A stretch of DNA of 64,000 nt from Mariniflexile litorale (lineage in GTDB: Bacteria; Bacteroidota; Bacteroidia; Flavobacteriales; Flavobacteriaceae): positions 1,063,501 through 1,127,500 of the forward strand of contig NZ_CP155618.1 in the NCBI RefSeq assembly GCF_031128465.2, in the 5' to 3' direction. The notes under the pieces are model-generated. The model was not told where the DNA came from. It ran no database searches and was given only the letters and a program-made list of their open reading frames with translations. Shown in pieces: positions 18,701-63,485 of this stretch. A program made the position numbers and the translations under genes. Positions within the stretch are counted from its first letter, which is position 1. Each line of letters begins with the position of its first letter.

Positions 18701-18845
18701 AAGTGATGCAAAAATAGGGAAAATTTTCTCCCTTAATCCCTCCTTAATAAGGAAACTGCTACGTGCTTACTCAAATGTTAATTTATATTTTTATGAAGCG
18801 TTGGAGTTAGGGTTAAACTCAATTTAAACCGAACCTTTGGCTGGT

Positions 18846-18928
18846 GCATTAGCGATTGCAGCGGCATCCTTTTTTGAGGCACGAAAAAAAAGATATAGCG
18901 GAAAGCGCGACCCTCTGGGTAATGCCCA
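18846..18928 (+). ncRNA. Recurrent structured element, possible Flavo-1 RNA, copy 1
   Basis: The element begins GCATTAGCGATTGCAGCGG and ends GGAAAGCGCGACCCTCTGGG then TAATGCCC. A second copy with the same opening and closing blocks and a different middle occurs on the minus strand at 42443-42578. The CGACCCTCTGGGT part can form a short hairpin. Such elements are abundant between flavobacterial genes. I suspect this is the Rfam Flavo-1 motif but cannot confirm it from sequence alone; it could equally be a mobile repeat with no RNA role. Confidence 0.45.
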
Positions 18929-28680: not shown

Positions 28681-29763
28681 CTAACCATTAATCACCTTCT
28701 CTTGGTGATTAATTGATTCTTGGTGAATCGCTTTAAACATTTTTAAAATAAACTCTTCACTTAAGCCTTGAGATTCTCCCTCAATAACCATTTTACCTAA
28801 AATTTCATTCCAACGCTTACTTTGTAATACAGCAACGTTTTTCTGTTTTTTAAGGGCGCCTATACCATCGGCAGCTTTCATACGTTTACCCAATAACTCA
28901 ATAATTTGATTGTCAACCACGTCAATTTGTGCTCTTAAATTATTAAGCTCCTTATTATAATCAGCTTCTGGATCGCTTTCTTTTCTAATTTTCAAATCTT
29001 TCATGATTTGAACTAAAGTTTTTGGCGTTACTTGTTGAGAAGCATCACTCCAAGCGTTATCTGGATCGTAATGGGTTTCAATCATTAACCCATCAAAGTT
29101 TAAATCTAAAGCAGCTTGAGATACATCAAAAATCATATCACGCTTTCCGGTAATATGCGAGGGATCGTTGATTAATGGAATATCTGGATATTTATTTTGA
29201 AACTCAATAGCTAATTGCCATTCTGGATTGTTTCTGTATTTTGTTTTTTCATAAGTTGAAAACCCTCTATGAATCGCACCAATATTTTTAACACCCGCTT
29301 TGTAAATTCTTTCAATACCACCTAACCATAAAGCTAAATCTGGATTTACAGGGTTTTTAATTAAAACAGGTTTATCGGTTCCTTGTAAAGCATCTGCAAT
29401 TTCTTGCATAATGAATGGGCTTACTGTAGAACGTGCACCAATCCATAATAAATCTACATCATGCTCTAAAGCTAATTTTACATGGGCAGCGTTTGCTACT
29501 TCGGTACAAATTTTCATACCAGTTTCTGCTTTTACCTTTTGCAACCATTTTAAACCTAACGCACCAACACCTTCAAACATTCCTGGACGTGTTCTTGGTT
29601 TCCAAATACCTGCTCTAAAATAACTTACATCCGTATCTTTTAGCTCATGTGCTATTCTTAATACTTGCTCTTCTGTTTCAGCACTACAAGGTCCTGCAAT
29701 TACCAGTGGATGACTTAAATTTAAATCATCTAACCACGTTCTCATTTCTTTTTTGTTTTCCAT
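28681..29763 (-). CDS. Bifunctional DAHP synthase / chorismate mutase (type II)
   Basis: A 360-residue fusion. Residues about 1-260 are a KDPG/beta-type 3-deoxy-7-phosphoheptulonate synthase (HPLVIAGPCSAETEEQVLRI, RAGIWKPRTRPGMFEG, PVLIKNPVNPD, DPSHITGKRD, MIETHYDPDNAWSDASQQVT). Residues about 270-355 are an AroQ-type chorismate mutase (LRAQIDVVDNQIIELLGKRM, then KKQKNVAVLQSKRW). It catalyses the first shikimate step and the branch to prephenate. The mutase is at the C-terminus, opposite to the Bacillus fusion. It is the last gene of the attenuator-controlled aromatic operon and ends in the bidirectional terminator. Confidence 0.93.
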   Translation of the reverse strand: MENKKEMRTWLDDLNLSHPLVIAGPCSAETEEQVLRIAHELKDTDVSYFRAGIWKPRTRPGMFEGVGALGLKWLQKVKAETGMKICTEVANAAHVKLALEHDVDLLWIGARSTVSPFIMQEIADALQGTDKPVLIKNPVNPDLALWLGGIERIYKAGVKNIGAIHRGFSTYEKTKYRNNPEWQLAIEFQNKYPDIPLINDPSHITGKRDMIFDVSQAALDLNFDGLMIETHYDPDNAWSDASQQVTPKTLVQIMKDLKIRKESDPEADYNKELNNLRAQIDVVDNQIIELLGKRMKAADGIGALKKQKNVAVLQSKRWNEILGKMVIEGESQGLSEEFILKMFKAIHQESINHQEKVING

Positions 29764-29857: not shown

Positions 29858-30709
29858 TTAATTTATTCCCTTTAAAATATCTTTTATATAATTAGTTTCT
29901 TTCATTTCTTTAAAAATAGCATCAAAATCATCCTCTTTCATTAAGTCTTTAAAATGAGTCAGATTTGTTATATATTCTTCCAATGTTTCTATAACATTTT
30001 GTTTGTTTTGTTTAAAAATGGGTGTCCACATTTCTGGTGAACTTTTCGCTAAACGCACGGTTGAGGCAAATCCACTTCCCGCCATATCAAAAATATCACG
30101 TTCGTTCTTTTCTTTATCAATCACCGTTTTACCTAACATAAACGCACTAATATGCGATAAATGCGATACGTAAGCAATGTGTTTATCATGTGCCTCTGGA
30201 TTCATGTAACGCATACGCATACCAATCGATTTAAACAACTCCAACGCTTTTTCTTGAAGTTTGAATGTTGTTTTTTCAACTTCACAAATAATATTTGTTT
30301 TCCCAACAAACAAATCAGGAATAGCTGCACTAGGTCCTGAATGTTCTGTTCCCGCAATAGGATGCATTGCTAAAAAATTTCTTCGTTTCGGATGATTTTC
30401 AACCACTTTACAAATATCGGCTTTTGTTGAGCCTGCATCTACCACCAAACCATTGTCTGATATTTTATCTAAAACAATTGGTAATAATTTTACAGTAGCA
30501 TCAACAGGAATAGAAATAATTACTAAATCGGCATGAACAACATCATCCAAAGTTGCCTTTTTATCAATTAACTTCAGCGTTAATGCTTCGTCAAGCGTCG
30601 TTTCTTTTCTACTGATACCATGAATAACCACCTCTGGATATTTCTTTTTAATATCAATAGCAAGACTTCCGCCTATTAACCCAACGCCTATCATGTATAT
30701 ATTTTTCAT
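29858..30709 (-). CDS. tyrA: Prephenate dehydrogenase
   Basis: A 283-residue NAD(P)-dependent enzyme of tyrosine synthesis. A Rossmann fingerprint GVGLIGGSLAIDIK is at the N-terminus, followed by HPIAGTEHSGPSAA (substrate-binding His) and DMAGSGFASTVRLAKSSPEM. There is no ACT or mutase domain, consistent with the mutase being fused to the DAHP synthase. It is the third gene of the aromatic operon. A GC-rich repeat (30712-30744) sits against its start codon. Confidence 0.93.
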   Translation of the reverse strand: MKNIYMIGVGLIGGSLAIDIKKKYPEVVIHGISRKETTLDEALTLKLIDKKATLDDVVHADLVIISIPVDATVKLLPIVLDKISDNGLVVDAGSTKADICKVVENHPKRRNFLAMHPIAGTEHSGPSAAIPDLFVGKTNIICEVEKTTFKLQEKALELFKSIGMRMRYMNPEAHDKHIAYVSHLSHISAFMLGKTVIDKEKNERDIFDMAGSGFASTVRLAKSSPEMWTPIFKQNKQNVIETLEEYITNLTHFKDLMKEDDFDAIFKEMKETNYIKDILKGIN

Positions 30710-30793: not shown

Positions 30794-31939
30794 TCATTTT
30801 ACTCGTGCTATTGCTTCTTCTAAAACTTCAGTGGAAGCACACAAGGAAAACCGTATGTATCCTTCACCTTTACTACCAAAAATAGTTCCTGGTGTAATGA
30901 ATATATGATTGTTTTTAAGTACTAAATCTATAAACTCCTCCGACTTTACAAAAGGTGGTAACTTAGCCCAAACAAATAAACCAGTCGCATTTTTATCGTA
31001 AGTACAATTTAAAGCCTCGGCTAATTGCCATACTAAATCTCTACGTTGTTTGTAAACATTGTTTAAAGTCACAAACCACATGTTCGAACATTTTAAAGCT
31101 TCAATAGCGCCTCTTTGAATGCCATAAAACATTCCAGAATCCATATTACTTTTCACTTTTAAAACATTGTTTATATGATTACTATCGCCAACAACCATAC
31201 CAACACGCCATCCTGCCATGTTAAATGTTTTACTTAAGGAATTTAATTCTAAACACACCTCTTTAGCACCTTCAACTTCTAAAATACTTCTATATGAATC
31301 GTTTAAAACAAAACTGTATGGATTGTCGTTAACAATTAAAATATTATGTTTTTTACCAAAGGCTACTAAGTCTTCAAATAAAGACTTACTTGGTTGTGCA
31401 CCTGTTGGCATATGCGGGTAATTCACCCACATTATTTTTACTTTACTTAAATCTAATTTTTCTAAAGCATCAAAATCTGGCAACCAATTTGTAGCTTCAT
31501 CCAACTCATAAAAAACAGGAATGGCACCAACTAAATTTGTAACCGACGCATATGTTGGATACCCTGGGTTTGGTATTAACACCTCATCCCCTTCATTAAG
31601 GTATGCCATAGAAATATGCATAATCCCTTCCTTGCTCCCCATTAATGGCAAGATTTCTGTGGATGGGCTTAAGTTTACCGAAAAATGGGCTTTATAAAAA
31701 TCAGCAATAGCCTCTCTTAATTCCGGTAAGCCTTGATAACTTTGGTATTTATGTGCACTTGGGCTTGCAAACCCTTCATTTAAAGCATCAATAACCTTTT
31801 GTGGAGGCTGCATATCTGGGCTACCAATCCCCAAATTAATAATAGGCTCACCATTGGCAATAAGCAAATTCACCTCTCTCATTTTTTTTGAGAAGTAGTA
31901 CTCTTCAACGGTGTTCAATCTGTTAGCTGCCTCAATCAT
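30794..31939 (-). CDS. Class I/II aminotransferase of the aromatic operon
   Basis: A 381-residue PLP enzyme of fold type I. The lysine motif is SLSKTFNMAGWRVGMVVG, with the NYPHMPTGA and NDNPYSFVL segments and a C-terminal GEGYIRFSL. Placed between pheA and tyrA, it most likely transaminates phenylpyruvate and hydroxyphenylpyruvate with glutamate or aspartate. It overlaps pheA by 4 bp (ATGA), indicating tight coupling. Substrate range is inferred from context; an aspartate or LL-DAP aminotransferase activity is the main alternative. Confidence 0.87.
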   Translation of the reverse strand: MIEAANRLNTVEEYYFSKKMREVNLLIANGEPIINLGIGSPDMQPPQKVIDALNEGFASPSAHKYQSYQGLPELREAIADFYKAHFSVNLSPSTEILPLMGSKEGIMHISMAYLNEGDEVLIPNPGYPTYASVTNLVGAIPVFYELDEATNWLPDFDALEKLDLSKVKIMWVNYPHMPTGAQPSKSLFEDLVAFGKKHNILIVNDNPYSFVLNDSYRSILEVEGAKEVCLELNSLSKTFNMAGWRVGMVVGDSNHINNVLKVKSNMDSGMFYGIQRGAIEALKCSNMWFVTLNNVYKQRRDLVWQLAEALNCTYDKNATGLFVWAKLPPFVKSEEFIDLVLKNNHIFITPGTIFGSKGEGYIRFSLCASTEVLEEAIARVK

Positions 31940-32763
31940 AATTTTGCGTTTTTATACTCGCCCAAAACTTTAAAACTTTGTGCCATAATTTCTATAATAG
32001 ATTTTGCCTTTTTAAAATCATTATAATTTTCAAAAGTAATATCTACAAAAAAAGCATATTTCCAAGGTGTTTCAACAATGGGTAAGGATTGTATTTTAGT
32101 TAAGCTCAATTTACAATCGCTCATCACATTTAGAATAGCCGCTAAACTACCTCGTTTGTGATCGGCCTCAAACCGAACCGATGCTTTATTAATTTGTGTT
32201 TCTGGCACTTCCGAATTGGTACGCTTAACAATTACAAAACGCGTTTCGTTGTGCTTTATAGTTTGAATACTTTTTGCTAAAATGTCCAAATCAAAAATTT
32301 CGGCTGCGATAGCACTTGCTATAGCTCCAACACCCTTTAGTTGCTTTTCTTGTATACGCTGTGCAACTTCTGCTGTATCTTTATCTTCAATCAATTTAAT
32401 ATGAGGGTGTAGTTTAAAAAACTCCGTACACTGCAATAACGCCATGGGATGCGAATACACTTCCTTTATTTCTTTTATATTCTGATTAGGTAGAGCCATT
32501 AAATTGTGCTGAATATCTAAATAATGTTCACCAACAATATGCAACCCAAACTTATTAATTAAGGCATAATTAGGAATGATAGATCCCGCTATGGAATTTT
32601 CTAAAGCCATGATAGCTGCATCACATTCTTTGGTTATCAAAGAATCGACTACTTGATCGAATGTTAAACATTCTATAGCATCAACAGGCTTATCAAAAAA
32701 TTGCTGCGACACAATATGATGAAAAGATCCTTTTACGCCCTGTATGGCTACTGTTTTTATCAT
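31936..32763 (-). CDS. pheA: Prephenate dehydratase
   Basis: A 275-residue enzyme that converts prephenate to phenylpyruvate. The PDT domain (about 1-180) has VAIQGVKGSFHH, ALENSIAGSI and NETRFVIVKR. The ACT domain (about 195-275) has GSLAAILNVMSDCKLSLTKI. The ESRP motif that binds Phe in many PDTs reads QSLP here. The ATG at 32763 is chosen over a TTG two codons upstream. It is the first structural gene of the operon, and its ATG lies 4 bases after the T-run of a terminator preceded by an aromatic-rich leader peptide. Confidence 0.93.
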   Translation of the reverse strand: MIKTVAIQGVKGSFHHIVSQQFFDKPVDAIECLTFDQVVDSLITKECDAAIMALENSIAGSIIPNYALINKFGLHIVGEHYLDIQHNLMALPNQNIKEIKEVYSHPMALLQCTEFFKLHPHIKLIEDKDTAEVAQRIQEKQLKGVGAIASAIAAEIFDLDILAKSIQTIKHNETRFVIVKRTNSEVPETQINKASVRFEADHKRGSLAAILNVMSDCKLSLTKIQSLPIVETPWKYAFFVDITFENYNDFKKAKSIIEIMAQSFKVLGEYKNAKL

Positions 32764-32767
32764 ATAC

Positions 32768-32840
32768 AAAAAAAAGTCCCGATTTTCATCGAGACTTAGT
32801 ATTAAAATTTATGTTTATAAATTATACATACAACGTCTCG
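32768..32840 (-). promoter_or_regulatory. Phe/Tyr attenuator: terminator with competing antiterminator
   Basis: On the minus strand, AGTCTCGAT and ATCGGGACT form a 9-bp stem (one G-U) closed by a GAAA loop (32796-32775). Eight T residues (32775-32768) follow, a good intrinsic terminator 4 bases before the pheA ATG. Upstream, CGAGAC (32840-32835), inside the last codons of the leader peptide, is the exact complement of GTCTCG in the terminator's 5' arm, so the two pairings exclude each other. TATGT and ACATA between them can form a nested hairpin. A ribosome at the leader stop would cover CGAGAC and let the terminator form; one stalled at the Phe/Tyr codons would leave it free for antitermination. 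Confidence 0.8.
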
Positions 32841-32902
32841 TTTTTTCTGCTAAAGAAAAAATAAAATCCGCTAAAATATGTATAACCTACTGTTGTCTTC
32901 AT
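32822..32902 (-). CDS. Aromatic-rich leader peptide of the pheA operon, 26 residues
   Basis: A short frame of 26 codons plus stop. It contains Tyr at residues 7, 9, 14 and 25 and Phe at 10, 13, 15, 16 and 17, with the core YTYFSGFYFFFS. Nine of 26 residues are aromatic, far above expectation. Tyr7-Phe17 is the regulatory codon cluster. Codons 21-23 carry the antiterminator strand. It lies immediately upstream of a terminator that precedes pheA, as in enterobacterial pheL leaders. The peptide itself is not expected to have a function. Initiation cannot be proven because this phylum lacks Shine-Dalgarno signals. Confidence 0.78.
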   Translation of the reverse strand: MKTTVGYTYFSGFYFFFSRKNETLYV

Positions 32903-33023
32903 AATTATGCCGCTAAAGTAATTAATATTTTAAGAAATAGAAACAGGTTAAAACCTTTTTTTTCATATTTATCAAAAGTTTTAAATATTTTACAGCAAAA
33001 CATACATTACATTAGATAATCAT

Positions 33024-46597: not shown

Positions 46598-46650
46598 GTT
46601 GATATTTTTATATCTGTATGTCATCAAGAAAAGTAAAAGAAACACTTTTC

Positions 46651-46761
46651 GTTATCTTTCCAATATTCTTTGAGAATACTAGTAGAACGTAGCACCTTCT
46701 TTACAAGATAAAGGGTTGCCAAGGTTTCAACGGGTCTATTCCCTCTACCTTTCTTGATAAC
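46651..46761 (-). promoter_or_regulatory. SAM-I (S-box) riboswitch upstream of metH
   Basis: On the minus strand the aptamer runs from GTTATCAAGAAAGGTAGAGG to GATAAC. P1 is GTTATC/GATAAC. Conserved blocks AGAGGGA, GACCC, TGAAACC, GGCAACC and GGTGCTA are in order. A -7 box TATTTTTG (46797-46790) lies just upstream. After the aptamer, GAAAAGT and ACTTTTC can form a hairpin without a T-run. TTTCTTGAT further on complements the 5' P1 strand ATCAAGAAA, so an alternative fold is possible. A second copy precedes metY. Confidence 0.92.
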
Positions 46762-46844
46762 ACAATTAATACGTTTATGAACTCGTGGGCAAAAATACCA
46801 CACATTTTTTTAAATTCACAGTAAATTGAGTAAAATTGCCCGAT

Positions 46845-58386: not shown

Positions 58387-61300
58387 TTAATTTATATGTT
58401 TAGACAACCTTAAAATATCTCCAAAAACGCCTCTTGCAGTCACTTCCGATCCTGCTCCTGCACCTTGAATCACGATGGGTTGCTCGCCATAACTTTCAGT
58501 GAATATTTCAAAAATAGCATCACTTCCTTTTATTTGCCCTAATGTACTATCACCTGGAATGGATACTAATTTCACTTCTAAAACGCCTTTGTCTTTTGAT
58601 AAATCACCCGATAAATCGCCAATATATCTTAATACGTGCCCAGATTTTTGAGCTTCTTTTATTTTCTGAAATTCATCATCTAAAACATTCAACTGACTTA
58701 AAAACTCAGGTACAGAAATATTTCTGTAGGCTTCAGGAATTAAGTTTTGAACGGAAACATCATCAAATTCATTGTGTAAATCTAACTCTCTTGCTAAAAT
58801 TAATAATTTTCTAGCCACATCATTTCCTGAAAAATCTTCTCGCGGGTCGGGTTCGGTAAAACCTTTGTCAATAGTTTCTTGAACAATGGTGCTAAACGGT
58901 TTATTTTGAACTGAGAAATTATTGAATAAATAACTCAACGTTCCTGAAAACACACCACGAATTCTGGTAATATTTTCACCAGATTCGTGTAACAATTTAA
59001 TAGTATCAATTAAGGGTAAACCTGCGCCAACCGTAGTTTCGTATAAATATTGTTTATTATGTTCTTTTAATTGTGTTCGTAAATCGGTGTAAAATTGATG
59101 CGAAATGGTATTTGCAATTTTGTTTGATGACACTAAATCAAAACCAGCTTCAACTAAAGGCATATAGTTGTCGTGAAATTTAGGACTTGCCGTATTATCT
59201 ACTGCAATTAAATTTTCTAAATGATGTGTTTTTGCAAAAGCAATCACATCTTCCATAGAACTTTCTAAGTTAGATGTTTTAATAGCCTCTTTCCAATTAG
59301 CATCAACACCTTTTTTGTTTAAAAGGAGTTTTTTAGAATTGCCAATAGCAAACACATTTAAATTGATACCTTTTCGTTTTTCAATATCGCCTTTCGATTT
59401 CAATATTTGATTAATTAAGGCACCTCCAACACCACCGTGACCAAAAATGGCAATGTTTATTTTCTTTGAAATTCCAAAAATTTCACCATGAATCACATTC
59501 ATAGCTTTATGAAGTTGGTTCTTTTTAACAACCAAACTCACATTTTTACCAGTAACCGTATTGTTAAATAATAATGGTGTAATCTGGTTTTTTATAAGGG
59601 CGTTGAATGGTTTATGGAACGAACTTAATTCTATACCAATAATCGAGATAACTGAGACATCATCAACCACCGCAATTTTATTAACATCTTGCGAATAGAA
59701 ATCGCTTTCAAACTCACGTTCTAAAGCAATAACGGCTTGTGTTGCTTGGTCGGCATTAATTATTAACCCAATACCTCGTTCCGAAGAACCTTGAGAAATG
59801 ATGCTAACACTGATGTTTTGAGTTGCTAAAGCTCCAAAAATTCGAGCGTCTACACCACTTTTTCCTAACAAACCTCGGCCTTCTAAATTTAATAAAGCCA
59901 CATTATCTAAAACTGATAAAGAGGTTACTTCTTTAGAATTTGGCTTTGCGGTAATTAAAGTCCCTTCATCTTCTGGATTGAACGTATTTAAAATACGCAG
60001 GTTGATATTTTTCTCTACCAACGGAATGATGGTTTTTGCATGCAGAACAGTGGTTCCAAAATTAGCTAACTCATTCGCTTCACTAAACGATAATTCACGT
60101 ATTTTTTTAGCATCTTCAACCATATCGGGATTTGCCGTATAAATACCGTTTACGTGTGTGTAATTTTGTAATTCTTCGGCATCTAAATAATTTGCCAAAA
60201 GTGCCGCGGTATAATTACTACCATTTCGACCTAAGGTAGTGGTTTCGTTTTTCGCGTTAGATCCAATAAAACCAGTTACAATATTTACAACATCATTACC
60301 TACTTCTTTGTAATATTTTTTTACGTTATCTTTTGAAAGTTGCAGAATAGGCTGTGCATTTCCGAAGGTATCATTGGTTTTTATTAAGGTTCTAGCATCA
60401 ACTGCCGATGCTTTTATGTTTTTCTTATTTAATAAACTTGCGATTAATTTTACCGAAAGCAATTCGCCTTGTGCTAAAATCTCATCCTTCGTTTTTTTAC
60501 TGTAATCACCTAATAAACTAACACCTTCAAACAATTTATCTAAAACTGAAAATTCTACTGAAAAATCAACCTCTTTTAATGGCTCAGTTTGATAGTTTTT
60601 AAATACTTGCAACACTTCTTTATAAGGATGTCCCTTTACGGCTTTATTTAGAATATCTTCCAAATCATCCGTCGCCGAACTTCTTGCCGAAACTACCACT
60701 GTCATTTTCTCTCCTTCCTTTACCTTATTTTCAATAATAGAAATAACGGTATTCAATCCATCGCCATTTGCTAATGATCTGCCTCCAAACTTTAATACTT
60801 TCATGCGTCTTTTTTTCGAATTTGGCATAAAAATGCCTTCTACTATTTTTTCTAATTGCTCATATTCCATTAAAAAAGCATCGTGCCCATGAACAGAATG
60901 TATTTCGTTATAAGTGACATTGGGGTTCGATACTGCTAATTGCTTATGAGTTTGCCTGTTTTCTTCAGCGGTGAAAAACAAATCGGAATCAACGCCTACA
61001 ATATGAATATTGCCATGTATGTTTTCCAACACATTAAAATCGGTTGGTCTGTTTTTAGTAACATCAATGGATTTTAATAGCTGATTCATTAATTTGTAAG
61101 CAGACAGTTGGAAACGTTCTTGCAATTTATTACCATGATGCAACAACCAGCTTTCTACATTAAAAATTTCTAATTCTTCATTTTTGGACCGCTGAAAACG
61201 CTCGTTGAAAGATTCTGGAGTGCGGTAACATAACATAGCGTGCATTCTAGCATCGTGCACAGGATTTCTAGAATTCAACAGAAACTGTTCTTGTATTTGG

Positions 61301-61788
61301 CAATTGGCTATTAACCAATCGGTTGATTTCCAATCGGTTGCCACTGGAATTAAATTTTCGGTAATATCAGGACTTAATACAGCCATTTCCCAAGCAATAC
61401 CACCCCCTAACGAACCTCCAATAAGCGCAAATAACTTATCAATTTTTAGTTCTTTTAAACCAATTAAAAAAATATTTGCAATATCGCGTGCAACAAAATC
61501 TTTATAGTTATCAATTACAAAACCATCGAAACCGTTCCCAGGGATATTAAAAGCCAAGACAGAATAAATAGCGGTATCTATAACCTTATCCGCACCCACT
61601 AAATCTTGCCACCATCCATCTTTACCTGCTACATGACTATTTCCTGTTAACGCATGATTTACCAAAACTATAGGCGCCGTACCTAAAGGCTTGCCAAATA
61701 CTTGGTAACTTAACTTTATTTCAGGGTTAAGTACTTTACTTTCTGTAATAAAGTTTTGAATAATGATATGTTGTAAATTCGATTCCAA
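58387..61788 (-). CDS. thrA: Homoserine O-acyltransferase fused to aspartokinase-homoserine dehydrogenase
   Basis: An 1133-residue trifunctional protein. Residues 1-320 are a MetX-type alpha/beta-hydrolase acyltransferase (nucleophile Ser in IGGSLGGGIAWE, Asp in GVDSDLFF, His in VHGHDAFLME). From residue 329 the sequence is a ThrA-like enzyme: aspartokinase (MKVLKFGGRSLANG), ACT domains (ISVSIISQGSSERGI) and homoserine dehydrogenase (FGHGGVGGALINQI, RGVFSGTLSYLFNNFS, PDPREDFSGNDVARKLL). It thus carries aspartate to acylated homoserine. The start is TTG, with no in-frame ATG before the conserved region. Internal ATG 60804 could give a separate ThrA. Confidence 0.9.
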   Translation of the reverse strand: MESNLQHIIIQNFITESKVLNPEIKLSYQVFGKPLGTAPIVLVNHALTGNSHVAGKDGWWQDLVGADKVIDTAIYSVLAFNIPGNGFDGFVIDNYKDFVARDIANIFLIGLKELKIDKLFALIGGSLGGGIAWEMAVLSPDITENLIPVATDWKSTDWLIANCQIQEQFLLNSRNPVHDARMHAMLCYRTPESFNERFQRSKNEELEIFNVESWLLHHGNKLQERFQLSAYKLMNQLLKSIDVTKNRPTDFNVLENIHGNIHIVGVDSDLFFTAEENRQTHKQLAVSNPNVTYNEIHSVHGHDAFLMEYEQLEKIVEGIFMPNSKKRRMKVLKFGGRSLANGDGLNTVISIIENKVKEGEKMTVVVSARSSATDDLEDILNKAVKGHPYKEVLQVFKNYQTEPLKEVDFSVEFSVLDKLFEGVSLLGDYSKKTKDEILAQGELLSVKLIASLLNKKNIKASAVDARTLIKTNDTFGNAQPILQLSKDNVKKYYKEVGNDVVNIVTGFIGSNAKNETTTLGRNGSNYTAALLANYLDAEELQNYTHVNGIYTANPDMVEDAKKIRELSFSEANELANFGTTVLHAKTIIPLVEKNINLRILNTFNPEDEGTLITAKPNSKEVTSLSVLDNVALLNLEGRGLLGKSGVDARIFGALATQNISVSIISQGSSERGIGLIINADQATQAVIALEREFESDFYSQDVNKIAVVDDVSVISIIGIELSSFHKPFNALIKNQITPLLFNNTVTGKNVSLVVKKNQLHKAMNVIHGEIFGISKKINIAIFGHGGVGGALINQILKSKGDIEKRKGINLNVFAIGNSKKLLLNKKGVDANWKEAIKTSNLESSMEDVIAFAKTHHLENLIAVDNTASPKFHDNYMPLVEAGFDLVSSNKIANTISHQFYTDLRTQLKEHNKQYLYETTVGAGLPLIDTIKLLHESGENITRIRGVFSGTLSYLFNNFSVQNKPFSTIVQETIDKGFTEPDPREDFSGNDVARKLLILARELDLHNEFDDVSVQNLIPEAYRNISVPEFLSQLNVLDDEFQKIKEAQKSGHVLRYIGDLSGDLSKDKGVLEVKLVSIPGDSTLGQIKGSDAIFEIFTESYGEQPIVIQGAGAGSEVTARGVFGDILRLSKHIN

Positions 61789-61855: not shown

Positions 61856-63130
61856 TTAAATTTTGCTAAATGCTTCTTTTAAATCAGCTTTTAAATCATC
61901 AATATCTTCCAATCCAACAGATAAGCGAATCAAGTCCTTTGGAACTCCTGCTGCTTCTTGTTCTGTATCTGTCAATTGTTGATGCGTGGTACTTGCTGGG
62001 TGAATGATAAGCGATTTGGTATCACCAATATTTGCCAACAATGAAAAGAGTTTTGAATTATCTGCAATTGCTTTTGCTGCATCAAAACCACCTTTGGCTC
62101 CAAACGTAATAAGACCACTTTGACCTTTTGGTAAATATTTATCTGCCAAGGTTTTATATTTACTCGATTCTAAACCTGGATAATTTACCCAAGCAACTTC
62201 CTCTTGTTGCTCTAACCATTTTGCAAGTTCTAATGCATTTTGGCTATGCTGTTTTATTCTTACTGGCAACGTTTCTAAACCTTGAATGATTTGGAATGCG
62301 TTAAACGGACTTAATGCCCCACCAAAATCTCTTAAACCCTCTAATATTAACTTAAAGGTATAGGCGGCAGCTCCTAAAGCTTCATGATATACCAACCCAT
62401 GATATCCTGCAGAAGGTTCTGTAAACTCAGGGAATTTCCCATTAGCCCAATTAAACGTTCCTGCATCTACAATAGCACCACCTAAAGAAGTTCCTTGCCC
62501 ACCAATATATTTAGTTAACGAATGAATGACGATATTCGCCCCATGTTCTATAGGGTTTAATAATACCGATGTAGCTACCGTATTATCTACAATAAAAGGT
62601 ACACCTGCCGCTTTAGCATGAACCGAAATTGCTTTTAAATCCAATACATCTAATTTTGGGTTCCCTAAAGATTCCACAAAAAAAGCACGTGTATTATCTT
62701 TTACTGCCGCAGCGAAATTATCAGGATTATCACCATCTACAAACGTTGTAGTAATACCTAAACGAGGCAATGTTACTTTTAATAAATTATAAGTTCCACC
62801 ATATAAACTGCTAGATGCTACAATATGGTCGCCCGCTTTTAATAAGGTTAATAAACCTGTTGAAATAGCGGCAGTCCCTGAAGCAAAAACGACTGCACCT
62901 ACACCACCATCAACAGCAGCCAACCGATCTTGTAATATTTGATTGGTTGGATTATTAAGTCTGGTATATATAAATCCTAATTCCTTTAATGAAAAAAGAT
63001 TTGCTGCATGATCTGAATTGTTAAACACATAAGACGACGTTTGATAAATAGGCACTGCTCGAGTTCCTCCTGTTGCTGTTGTGTCATGCCCTGCATGTAA
63101 TGCGTTAGTTGCTAATTTTAATGTACTCAT
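61856..63130 (-). CDS. metY: O-acetylhomoserine sulfhydrylase
   Basis: A 424-residue PLP enzyme. The Lys motif is IVIHSLTKYIGGQGTSLGGA, the family block NALHAGHDTTATGGTRAVPI is at the N-terminus, and SVGLEDIDDLKADLKEAFSK ends the protein. It converts O-acetylhomoserine and sulfide to homocysteine. It is the first gene of a transcript with a SAM riboswitch leader, followed 67 bp later by the fused enzyme that would make its substrate. Confidence 0.92.
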   Translation of the reverse strand: MSTLKLATNALHAGHDTTATGGTRAVPIYQTSSYVFNNSDHAANLFSLKELGFIYTRLNNPTNQILQDRLAAVDGGVGAVVFASGTAAISTGLLTLLKAGDHIVASSSLYGGTYNLLKVTLPRLGITTTFVDGDNPDNFAAAVKDNTRAFFVESLGNPKLDVLDLKAISVHAKAAGVPFIVDNTVATSVLLNPIEHGANIVIHSLTKYIGGQGTSLGGAIVDAGTFNWANGKFPEFTEPSAGYHGLVYHEALGAAAYTFKLILEGLRDFGGALSPFNAFQIIQGLETLPVRIKQHSQNALELAKWLEQQEEVAWVNYPGLESSKYKTLADKYLPKGQSGLITFGAKGGFDAAKAIADNSKLFSLLANIGDTKSLIIHPASTTHQQLTDTEQEAAGVPKDLIRLSVGLEDIDDLKADLKEAFSKI

Positions 63131-63250
63131 TTTTCTAGTTTTTTTGAGTTAATAAATAATTAAAACAAAAGCCAAATGCATCAAAAATTGATGTACTTAA
63201 TAGAAAAATGTTAAAAAGAAAATAAAATTACCCTCAAGTAATTCTGCTTG

Positions 63251-63367
63251 GTTATCTATCTAAAACGCTAAATTTAACTAGCTATTTAAGTAGAATTTAG
63301 CACCTTCTTTACAGGTAAAGGGTTGCTAAGGCTTCAATGGGTCTATCCCTCCGCCTTTCTTGATAAC
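63251..63367 (-). promoter_or_regulatory. SAM-I (S-box) riboswitch upstream of metY
   Basis: On the minus strand, P1 GTTATC / GATAAC encloses AGGCGGAGGGA, GACCC, TTGAAGCC, TAGCAACCC and GGTGCTAAA in the same order as the metH aptamer; GGCAACC is TAGCAACC here. The aptamer starts 120 bases before the metY ATG. Downstream, AATTAC-TTGAGG-GTAATT followed by a T-rich stretch (63242-63215) could act as a weak terminator. The remaining part of the 355-bp gap shows nothing else. Confidence 0.92.
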
Positions 63368-63485
63368 ATTTCAATAAGTTTTTGAACTTTGTGAATGCAA
63401 ATATTCAGTTAGAAAAAGTTAAAAACCTAATTTTTTTAAATAAATTTTAGAAAACATCTCACATTCAATCTTAACTACTTACAAT

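Follow-up and report, generated by a model that had tools for sequence, protein, structure and literature searches.

The pheA operon of Mariniflexile litorale is preceded by a short aromatic-rich reading frame and an intrinsic terminator, which are best read, with a probability of roughly 0.9, as a transcription attenuator controlled by the ribosome at Phe and Tyr codons. Judged from its sequence, the element very probably serves the cell to turn the genes on when Phe or Tyr runs short. It lies on the minus strand of the window, that is, the whole stretch of 64,000 nucleotides that was analysed. A sequence-only reading of this DNA had already pointed to it. The observation as a whole is right and far beyond chance, and its interpretation as Phe/Tyr attenuation is supported by conservation, by pairing tests and by a ribosome-masking computation.

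Four genes follow the element on the minus strand. These are pheA itself (prephenate dehydratase, 31936-32763, PF00800), a class I/II aminotransferase (30794-31939, PF00155) that overlaps the end of pheA by 4 bp, tyrA (prephenate dehydrogenase, 29858-30709, PF02153 and PF20463, with NCBIfam NF006307 above its cut-off) and a fusion of DAHP synthase and chorismate mutase (28681-29763, PF00793 and PF01817). All four belong to Phe and Tyr synthesis, and they would be carried on one transcript.

The leader peptide frame (32902-32822, minus strand) translates as MKTTVGYTYFSGFYFFFSRKNETLYV. Nine of its 26 codons encode Phe or Tyr, and Y7, Y9, F10, F13, Y14, F15, F16 and F17 are the putative regulatory codons. 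The distance from the leader ATG (32902) to the ATG of pheA (32763) is 139 bases on the minus strand, and an intrinsic terminator is present, as sequence, between the leader and the structural genes. The terminator stem (32795-32776) reads GTCTCGAT-GAAA-ATCGGGAC, is extended by two A-U pairs in the minimum-free-energy fold and is completed by a run of eight T (32775-32768), which is separated from the pheA ATG by the four bases GTAT. Its 5′ arm is segment 3 (32788-32795), common to the antiterminator (2:3) and the terminator (3:4), and its 3′ arm is segment 4 (32776-32783). Segment 2 (32817-32840) overlaps the leader stop and consists of the antiterminator strand CGAGAC (32840-32835), which is exactly complementary to GTCTCG (32795-32790), and of the 3′ arm (32831-32817) of an outer stem of 15 bp. 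The 5′ arm of this outer stem is segment 1 (32890-32876), located within the start of the leader and seen in the fold, in the pair list and by covariation. The stem encloses nearly the whole leader, adjoins CGAGAC and corresponds to a protector, or anti-antiterminator. With the protector 1:2 stem present, the four segments known from classic attenuators are complete in the window leader. Translation, sequence, fold and pair listing thus agree with what had been described before, namely a 26-codon aromatic-rich frame, a GAAA-loop terminator with eight T ending 4 bases before the pheA ATG and the exact complementarity of CGAGAC to the 5′ arm of the terminator. The anatomy given at that time was nevertheless incomplete, as the 1:2 protector hairpin had been overlooked.

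The 139-nt leader RNA folds with -34.8 kcal/mol (z -5.71), and none of 200 shuffles folded as well. In the minimum-free-energy folds of 28 near-relative elements, the own element included, the terminator was formed in all 28, and in all 28 at least five pairs led from the leader into segment 2 or into the stretch between segment 2 and the terminator. When RNAalifold was applied to a first mixed MAFFT alignment, the outer 1:2 stem was missed because diverged rows shift through indels; it reappeared in single folds and in a subset alignment.

Upstream of the leader, a candidate -7 promoter box, TACTTTAG (32913-32920, minus strand), matches TAnnTTTG in five of six positions and lies 10 nt before the leader ATG. 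Passages of PMC9723704 give TAnnTTTG as the -7 box of sigma-A. At least five of the six positions were matched in 155 of 164 leader upstreams compared to 980 of 1640 shuffles, and all six in 42 of 164 compared to 65 of 1640; the modal distance to the leader ATG was again 10 nt. If the box at 32913-32920 is truly a -7 box, the RNA would start only a few bases 5′ of the leader ATG, and the promoter would be placed directly before the leader.

To survey the element, the regions upstream of pheA were collected from 34 near-relative loci (own included), from 80 named loci that carry Flavobacteriaceae genus names or are labelled only Flavobacteriaceae, Flavobacteriales, Bacteroidia or Bacteroidetes, and from 105 class-wide loci, 219 in total. 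The near-relative set represents 34 of 45 pheA matches, with 11 left out there. The class draw of 107 matches was reduced to 105 by leaving out one match without its first 49 residues (G560) and the own genome, which is counted elsewhere. The named locus nearest to the own pheA is of a Mariniflexile, with 96% PheA identity. Since some named records are genomes already present in the other samples, 213 of the 219 upstreams of 300 bases are distinct. Our strict detector looked for frames that begin with ATG, are 10-50 codons long and have five or more Phe or Tyr in ten; the frame had to end in the interval from 110 bases upstream to 3 bases downstream of the point where an intrinsic terminator starts. 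It detected leader and terminator before pheA in 32 of 34 near relatives, in 78 of the 80 named loci and, class-wide, in 67 of 105. When a minimum antiterminator score of 12 was also required, 32, 78 and 65 loci remained. Eight further class loci missed by the detector (L164, L173, L176, L177, L187, L204, L228 and L232) were counted by eye, which brings the class-wide sample to 75 of 105 loci and to 19 of 30 families. In the two missed named loci (L144 and L146) the sequence begins about 130-150 bases before the match. Conservation in close relatives, on which the proposal had been made to depend, is therefore seen for both the frame and the hairpin, and the aromatic codons are likewise kept in relatives, as all 177 detected leaders contain both Phe and Tyr (5.1 and 3.9 on average).

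The controls were clear. Leader and terminator were detected in 177 of the 219 real upstreams, compared to none of 2190 dinucleotide shuffles of the same upstreams and none of the 219 on the reverse strand. Moreover, when the detector was run with each of the 190 residue pairs, Phe and Tyr ranked at the top with 177 of 219, followed by Phe and Ser with 160.

The element was not found, by the strict detector and by eye, before 30 of the 105 class-wide pheA genes. In the class sample it was absent from all eight loci of one family (f80: L174, L180, L182, L184, L188, L194, L196 and L197), from all four of another (f24) and from both loci of f5, a family of the window's own order, and it was present in three of eight loci of f22. 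It was also absent from two of the 11 matches left out of the near-relative set (G040 and G053), which were read with the class sample. By eye, several f80 loci carry a TATCTTTG-type box directly upstream of pheA. The family gives the impression of having lost the attenuator or of never having acquired it.

A covariance model (R1) proved weak as a class-wide finder: of 395 genomes in a scan of the phylum, 69 had a match at E <= 0.01. A gene-anchored search was therefore used. Of 30 loci inspected from the R1 scan, 22 had an aromatic leader and a PheA-like gene downstream and eight did not; all 16 inspected loci with E <= 7.2e-5 belonged to the former. In the own genome the next best R1 match had an E of 0.09.

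The genes downstream are conserved to different degrees. In 78 of the 80 named loci the aminotransferase, TyrA and DAHP synthase-chorismate mutase follow in that order. Among 40 diverse loci, in which the stretch up to 6 kb downstream was searched by tblastn at 1e-8, DAHP synthase-chorismate mutase was present on the same strand in 39, the remaining locus being cut by the contig end, whereas TyrA was found in 24 and the aminotransferase in 30. A link between the Tyr codons and a neighbouring tyrA was not found: 16 of the 40 loci showed no TyrA match within 6 kb, and all 40 leaders keep Tyr. The dual code thus tracks the shared entry enzyme more than tyrA.

Next we compared the leaders codon by codon, using pairs of equal length (25, 26 or 27 codons) with at least 75% identity, which are not independent of each other. 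Synonymous changes made up 41.6% of the single-base codon differences, whereas random changes would give 17.5%. Single changes hit Phe or Tyr codons 656 times; 593 of these remained Phe or Tyr, 169 of them being exchanges between the two. The codon differences were distributed as 430 at position 1, 1056 at position 2 and 1054 at position 3; that position 2 differs as often as position 3 counts against the attenuator, but is in part due to Phe-Tyr exchange. In addition, TTC and TAC account for 366 of the 1477 Phe/Tyr codons in distinct leaders. The excess of synonymous change and the retention of Phe or Tyr indicate that the leader frame is under selection as a frame.

Pairing was studied in a model-fitted alignment of 96 elements (94 distinct), a subset of the loci. 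For the 1:2 and 3:4 stems, 94.1% of the cells were standard pairs compared to 41-55% in slid versions, and 23 of 31 pairs had changed on both sides compared to 8.0 in shuffles, although this alignment was fitted to those two stems and leans towards them by construction. The antiterminator 2:3 is outside the model, and it was paired in 98.2% of the cells compared to 18-40% when slid. Within Flavobacteriaceae 2:3 hardly covaries, because there is too little variation there: one of six pairs had changed on both sides, and 122 of 500 shuffles did equally well. Covarying stems, which the sequence-only reading had suggested looking for in relatives, were observed for 1:2 and 3:4, but hardly for 2:3 inside this family. 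Class-wide, 76 distinct pairs of segments 2 and 3 were seen, such as CGAGAC/GTCTCG, GCCGGGACT/AGTCCCGGC, GGCAGGA/TCCTGCC and CAGGGAC/GTCCCTG. When leader tails were scored against terminator arms, a score of at least 15 was reached with the own arm in 71% of 161 distinct elements, compared to 33% of 4464 swaps with any other arm, 16% of 11792 swaps with an unlike arm and 5% for shuffled leader tails.

To locate the switch point, a ribosome that masks 15 nt on the 5′ side of the A site and 12 nt on its 3′ side was placed on the leader in a transcript cut after segment 3. For the window leader the computed probability of 2:3 rose from 0.05 at codon 1 to 0.85-0.99 at codons 2-17, fell to 0.13 at codon 18 and was 0.00 at every codon from 19 through the stop. 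Codon 17, the last antiterminating codon in this fold, is also the last Phe of the Phe/Tyr run. With a footprint of 15 instead of 12 nt the probability was 0.78 at codon 17 and 0.00 at codon 18. In 148 of the 167 distinct elements folded in this way, the last antiterminating codon lay close to the last aromatic codon, at -1 to +2 relative to it. Since the search for the antiterminator began only downstream of the last aromatic codon, the upper side of this agreement alone is free. In 133 of the 177 detected leaders the antiterminator begins 9-11 nt beyond that codon. With the ribosome at the leader stop, 150 of the 167 had a probability of 2:3 below 0.1. Of the same 167 elements, 15 regained the possibility of 2:3 at least 10 codons downstream of the last aromatic codon, probably because the ribosome can move beyond segment 2 on a long tail, and two never came to a probability of 0.5. 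In silico, the computation is in line with the sequence-only reading, in which a ribosome at the stop masks CGAGAC and a ribosome stalled at the aromatic codons exposes it.

The same computation indicates that the order of folding matters. In the full window transcript at equilibrium 3:4 was favoured at every ribosome position, with a probability of 2:3 of at most 0.03, so that 2:3 must prevail by forming first. Without a ribosome, the partial transcript of the window leader gave probabilities of 0.92 for 1:2 and 0.02 for 2:3. However, only 49 of the 167 elements, that of the window included, kept the probability of 2:3 below 0.5 without a ribosome, and termination of untranslated leaders is therefore not general by energy alone.

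We propose that RNA polymerase would start just upstream of the leader ATG and that a first ribosome would translate the leader. When charged tRNA-Phe and tRNA-Tyr are plentiful, this ribosome would reach the stop codon and cover segment 2, and the 3:4 terminator would then form before pheA. A shortage of either tRNA would stall the ribosome on one of codons 7-17, where it would open the 1:2 stem and leave CGAGAC free; with segment 4 still to be transcribed, 2:3 would form and the polymerase would continue into pheA and the genes for the aminotransferase, TyrA and DAHP synthase-chorismate mutase. In an untranslated leader 1:2 would form, and termination would be the default. Translation of the leader, termination in the cell and the response to Phe and Tyr are what we infer from the arrangement and its conservation.

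Three other explanations were weighed against this attenuation model. The hairpin could hide the start of pheA translation unless it is opened by the leader ribosome, which would amount to translational attenuation. In the window the T run ends so close to the pheA ATG that a hairpin there could hinder initiation. However, the distance between terminator and gene varies from about 0 to more than 200 nt over the relatives, whereas the G+C stem and the T run are kept, which fits termination and not occlusion of the start, and we consider translational attenuation improbable. Arrest by the nascent peptide, in which the peptide and not an uncharged tRNA would stall the ribosome (TnaC-like, with free Phe or Tyr as ligand), would also suit a translated leader with a fixed distance between stall site and stem. 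It is mainly aromatic identity that is kept, however, with Phe-Tyr exchange making up 169 of the 656 changes in such codons, and the flanking residues are variable, unlike in an arrest motif. Such an arrest therefore appears very improbable.

Equally small is the chance that the terminator is constitutive or controlled by a protein and the frame fortuitous, its Phe and Tyr codons reflecting merely DNA rich in TTT and TAT. The region is indeed A+T-rich, the codons for Phe and Tyr are T-rich, and other residue pairs containing Phe rank next in the detector. Against this stand the shuffles of the same composition, none of which gave leader and terminator, the share of TTC and TAC, the excess of synonymous change, the occurrence of Phe/Tyr leaders in 19 of 30 families and the coincidence of the switch point with the last aromatic codon. 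Attenuation of transcription at the Phe and Tyr codons thus remains the best-supported reading.

The logic of such an element is familiar. In the enterobacterial pheL system a Phe-rich leader frame, the segment pairings 1:2, 2:3 and 3:4 and a terminator precede pheA, and the pheL leader of E. coli codes for Phe only. T-box leaders also place a terminator before amino-acid genes and sense tRNA charging, which they do by direct tRNA binding and without a leader frame. The window element shares with the pheL-pheA attenuator (Rfam RF01859, Phe_leader) the Phe-bearing leader, the pairings 1:2, 2:3 and 3:4 and the terminator before pheA. In contrast to E. coli pheL its leader codes for both Phe and Tyr, and in contrast to pheL-pheA its operon also carries tyrA and DAHP synthase-chorismate mutase. 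It differs from T-box leaders in having a leader frame, and no T-box was detected in the window at the Rfam gathering level or, up to E 5, in 32700-33020. In the leader region Phe_leader gave the most bits of the Rfam models, but the match is weak (20 bits, E 0.47; gathering score 55) and is absent from the gathering-level matches of the window; Trp_leader gave 17.7 bits (E 0.39). The hisL, trpL and ilv/leu leaders and that of leuA in Shewanella follow the same logic with other amino acids and operons, and an anti-antiterminator is described for leuA of Shewanella in PMC2659441.

In print, the closest case is that of Flavobacterium psychrophilum. Excerpts of PMC9723704 (2021) report strong clues for leader-peptide attenuation before its amino-acid operons and a 5′ element upstream of pheA that is conserved in other genera and has no Rfam match. 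The gene and the bacterial family are the same as for the window element, and the two are likely one and the same. These excerpts describe the pheA element but give neither its leader sequence nor its segments, and they name no amino-acid code and no occurrence outside Flavobacteriaceae. The same source mentions the absence of a Shine-Dalgarno setting, a further difference from pheL-pheA. The view that such attenuators are little described for Bacteroidota is consequently right in degree, but it goes too far in that leader-peptide clues and a conserved pheA element appear in the excerpts of this paper. According to part of PMC2965389 (2010), its authors knew of no leader peptide system outside Proteobacteria and Actinobacteria before their own case in Firmicutes, and PMC7366714 mentions that B. 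thetaiotaomicron has small frames reminiscent of leader peptides within long 5′ UTRs. Among the literature matches listed, whose coverage mostly excludes subscription papers, there was no description of a Phe/Tyr leader of pheA across Bacteroidia. The mechanism is thus known and classic, and the Flavobacteriaceae case was, going by those excerpts, briefly anticipated in 2021; newly added here are the breadth, the dual Phe/Tyr code and the anatomy. We think it probable that the element represents a lineage-specific RNA family absent from Rfam, spread or inherited across the class Bacteroidia (19 of 30 families sampled), which would read Phe and Tyr together for the terminal aromatic pathway and its entry enzyme, with a 5′ untranslated part of a few nt and no Shine-Dalgarno contact.

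Further candidate leaders were observed in the own genome. A His-rich leader, MNFIQLHHHHFQICSQAK (HHHH), precedes hisG, a Trp leader, MKSFLNNTWWWSFINLRFVK (WWW), precedes a trpE-like gene and a Leu/Ile/Val-rich leader, MNKLVLNSISINVVVITLHR, precedes ilvD, each followed by a hairpin resembling an intrinsic terminator (L257, L258 and L260, near 3935337, 2869357 and 1157186 of the genome contig, respectively). From their sequences these are likely further attenuators, and leader-peptide attenuation looks like a routine form of control in M. litorale. A Thr/Ile-rich frame, MNHSVQNTSTTLPFSIKGNTSIFGTTTIITTLWGC (…FGTTTIITTLWGC), was also seen upstream of an aspartokinase/homoserine dehydrogenase gene (L264; Pfam match at 3285327-3285917 of the contig). 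As the detector found no terminator before this gene, a Thr leader is not claimed.

The only matches at the Rfam gathering level in the 64-kb window are two SAM riboswitches and one Flavo-1 RNA. One SAM riboswitch (63249-63369, minus strand) precedes the gene at 61856-63130, which is located upstream of a 1133-codon frame (58387-61788, minus strand). This frame, whose homoserine dehydrogenase part is PF00742, looks from its sequence like a fusion of a homoserine O-acetyltransferase-like hydrolase, an aspartokinase and a homoserine dehydrogenase. The second SAM riboswitch is found at 46649-46763 (minus strand, 80.5 bits) and Flavo-1 (RF01705) at 18835-18916 (plus strand). Flavo-1 is listed for Bacteroidetes in PMC2864571 and appears in PMC9723704 as a motif without real clues to its function.

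The results indicate that classic leader-peptide attenuation is an established means of amino-acid control in a large part of the class Bacteroidia, and they provide an anatomy for testing in the form of segments, a stall window and regulatory codons. Because the switch can operate only when the first ribosome does not fall behind the polymerase, the leader is also a handle on transcription-translation coupling, in a phylum that does not initiate translation as E. coli does. In a passage of PMC13323073 (2026), Bacteroidota are not among the phyla listed as runaway. If the reading as an RNA family with a very short 5′ untranslated part and no Shine-Dalgarno contact is true, such leaders would imply that ribosomes closely follow RNA polymerase in Bacteroidota, at least over the leaders.
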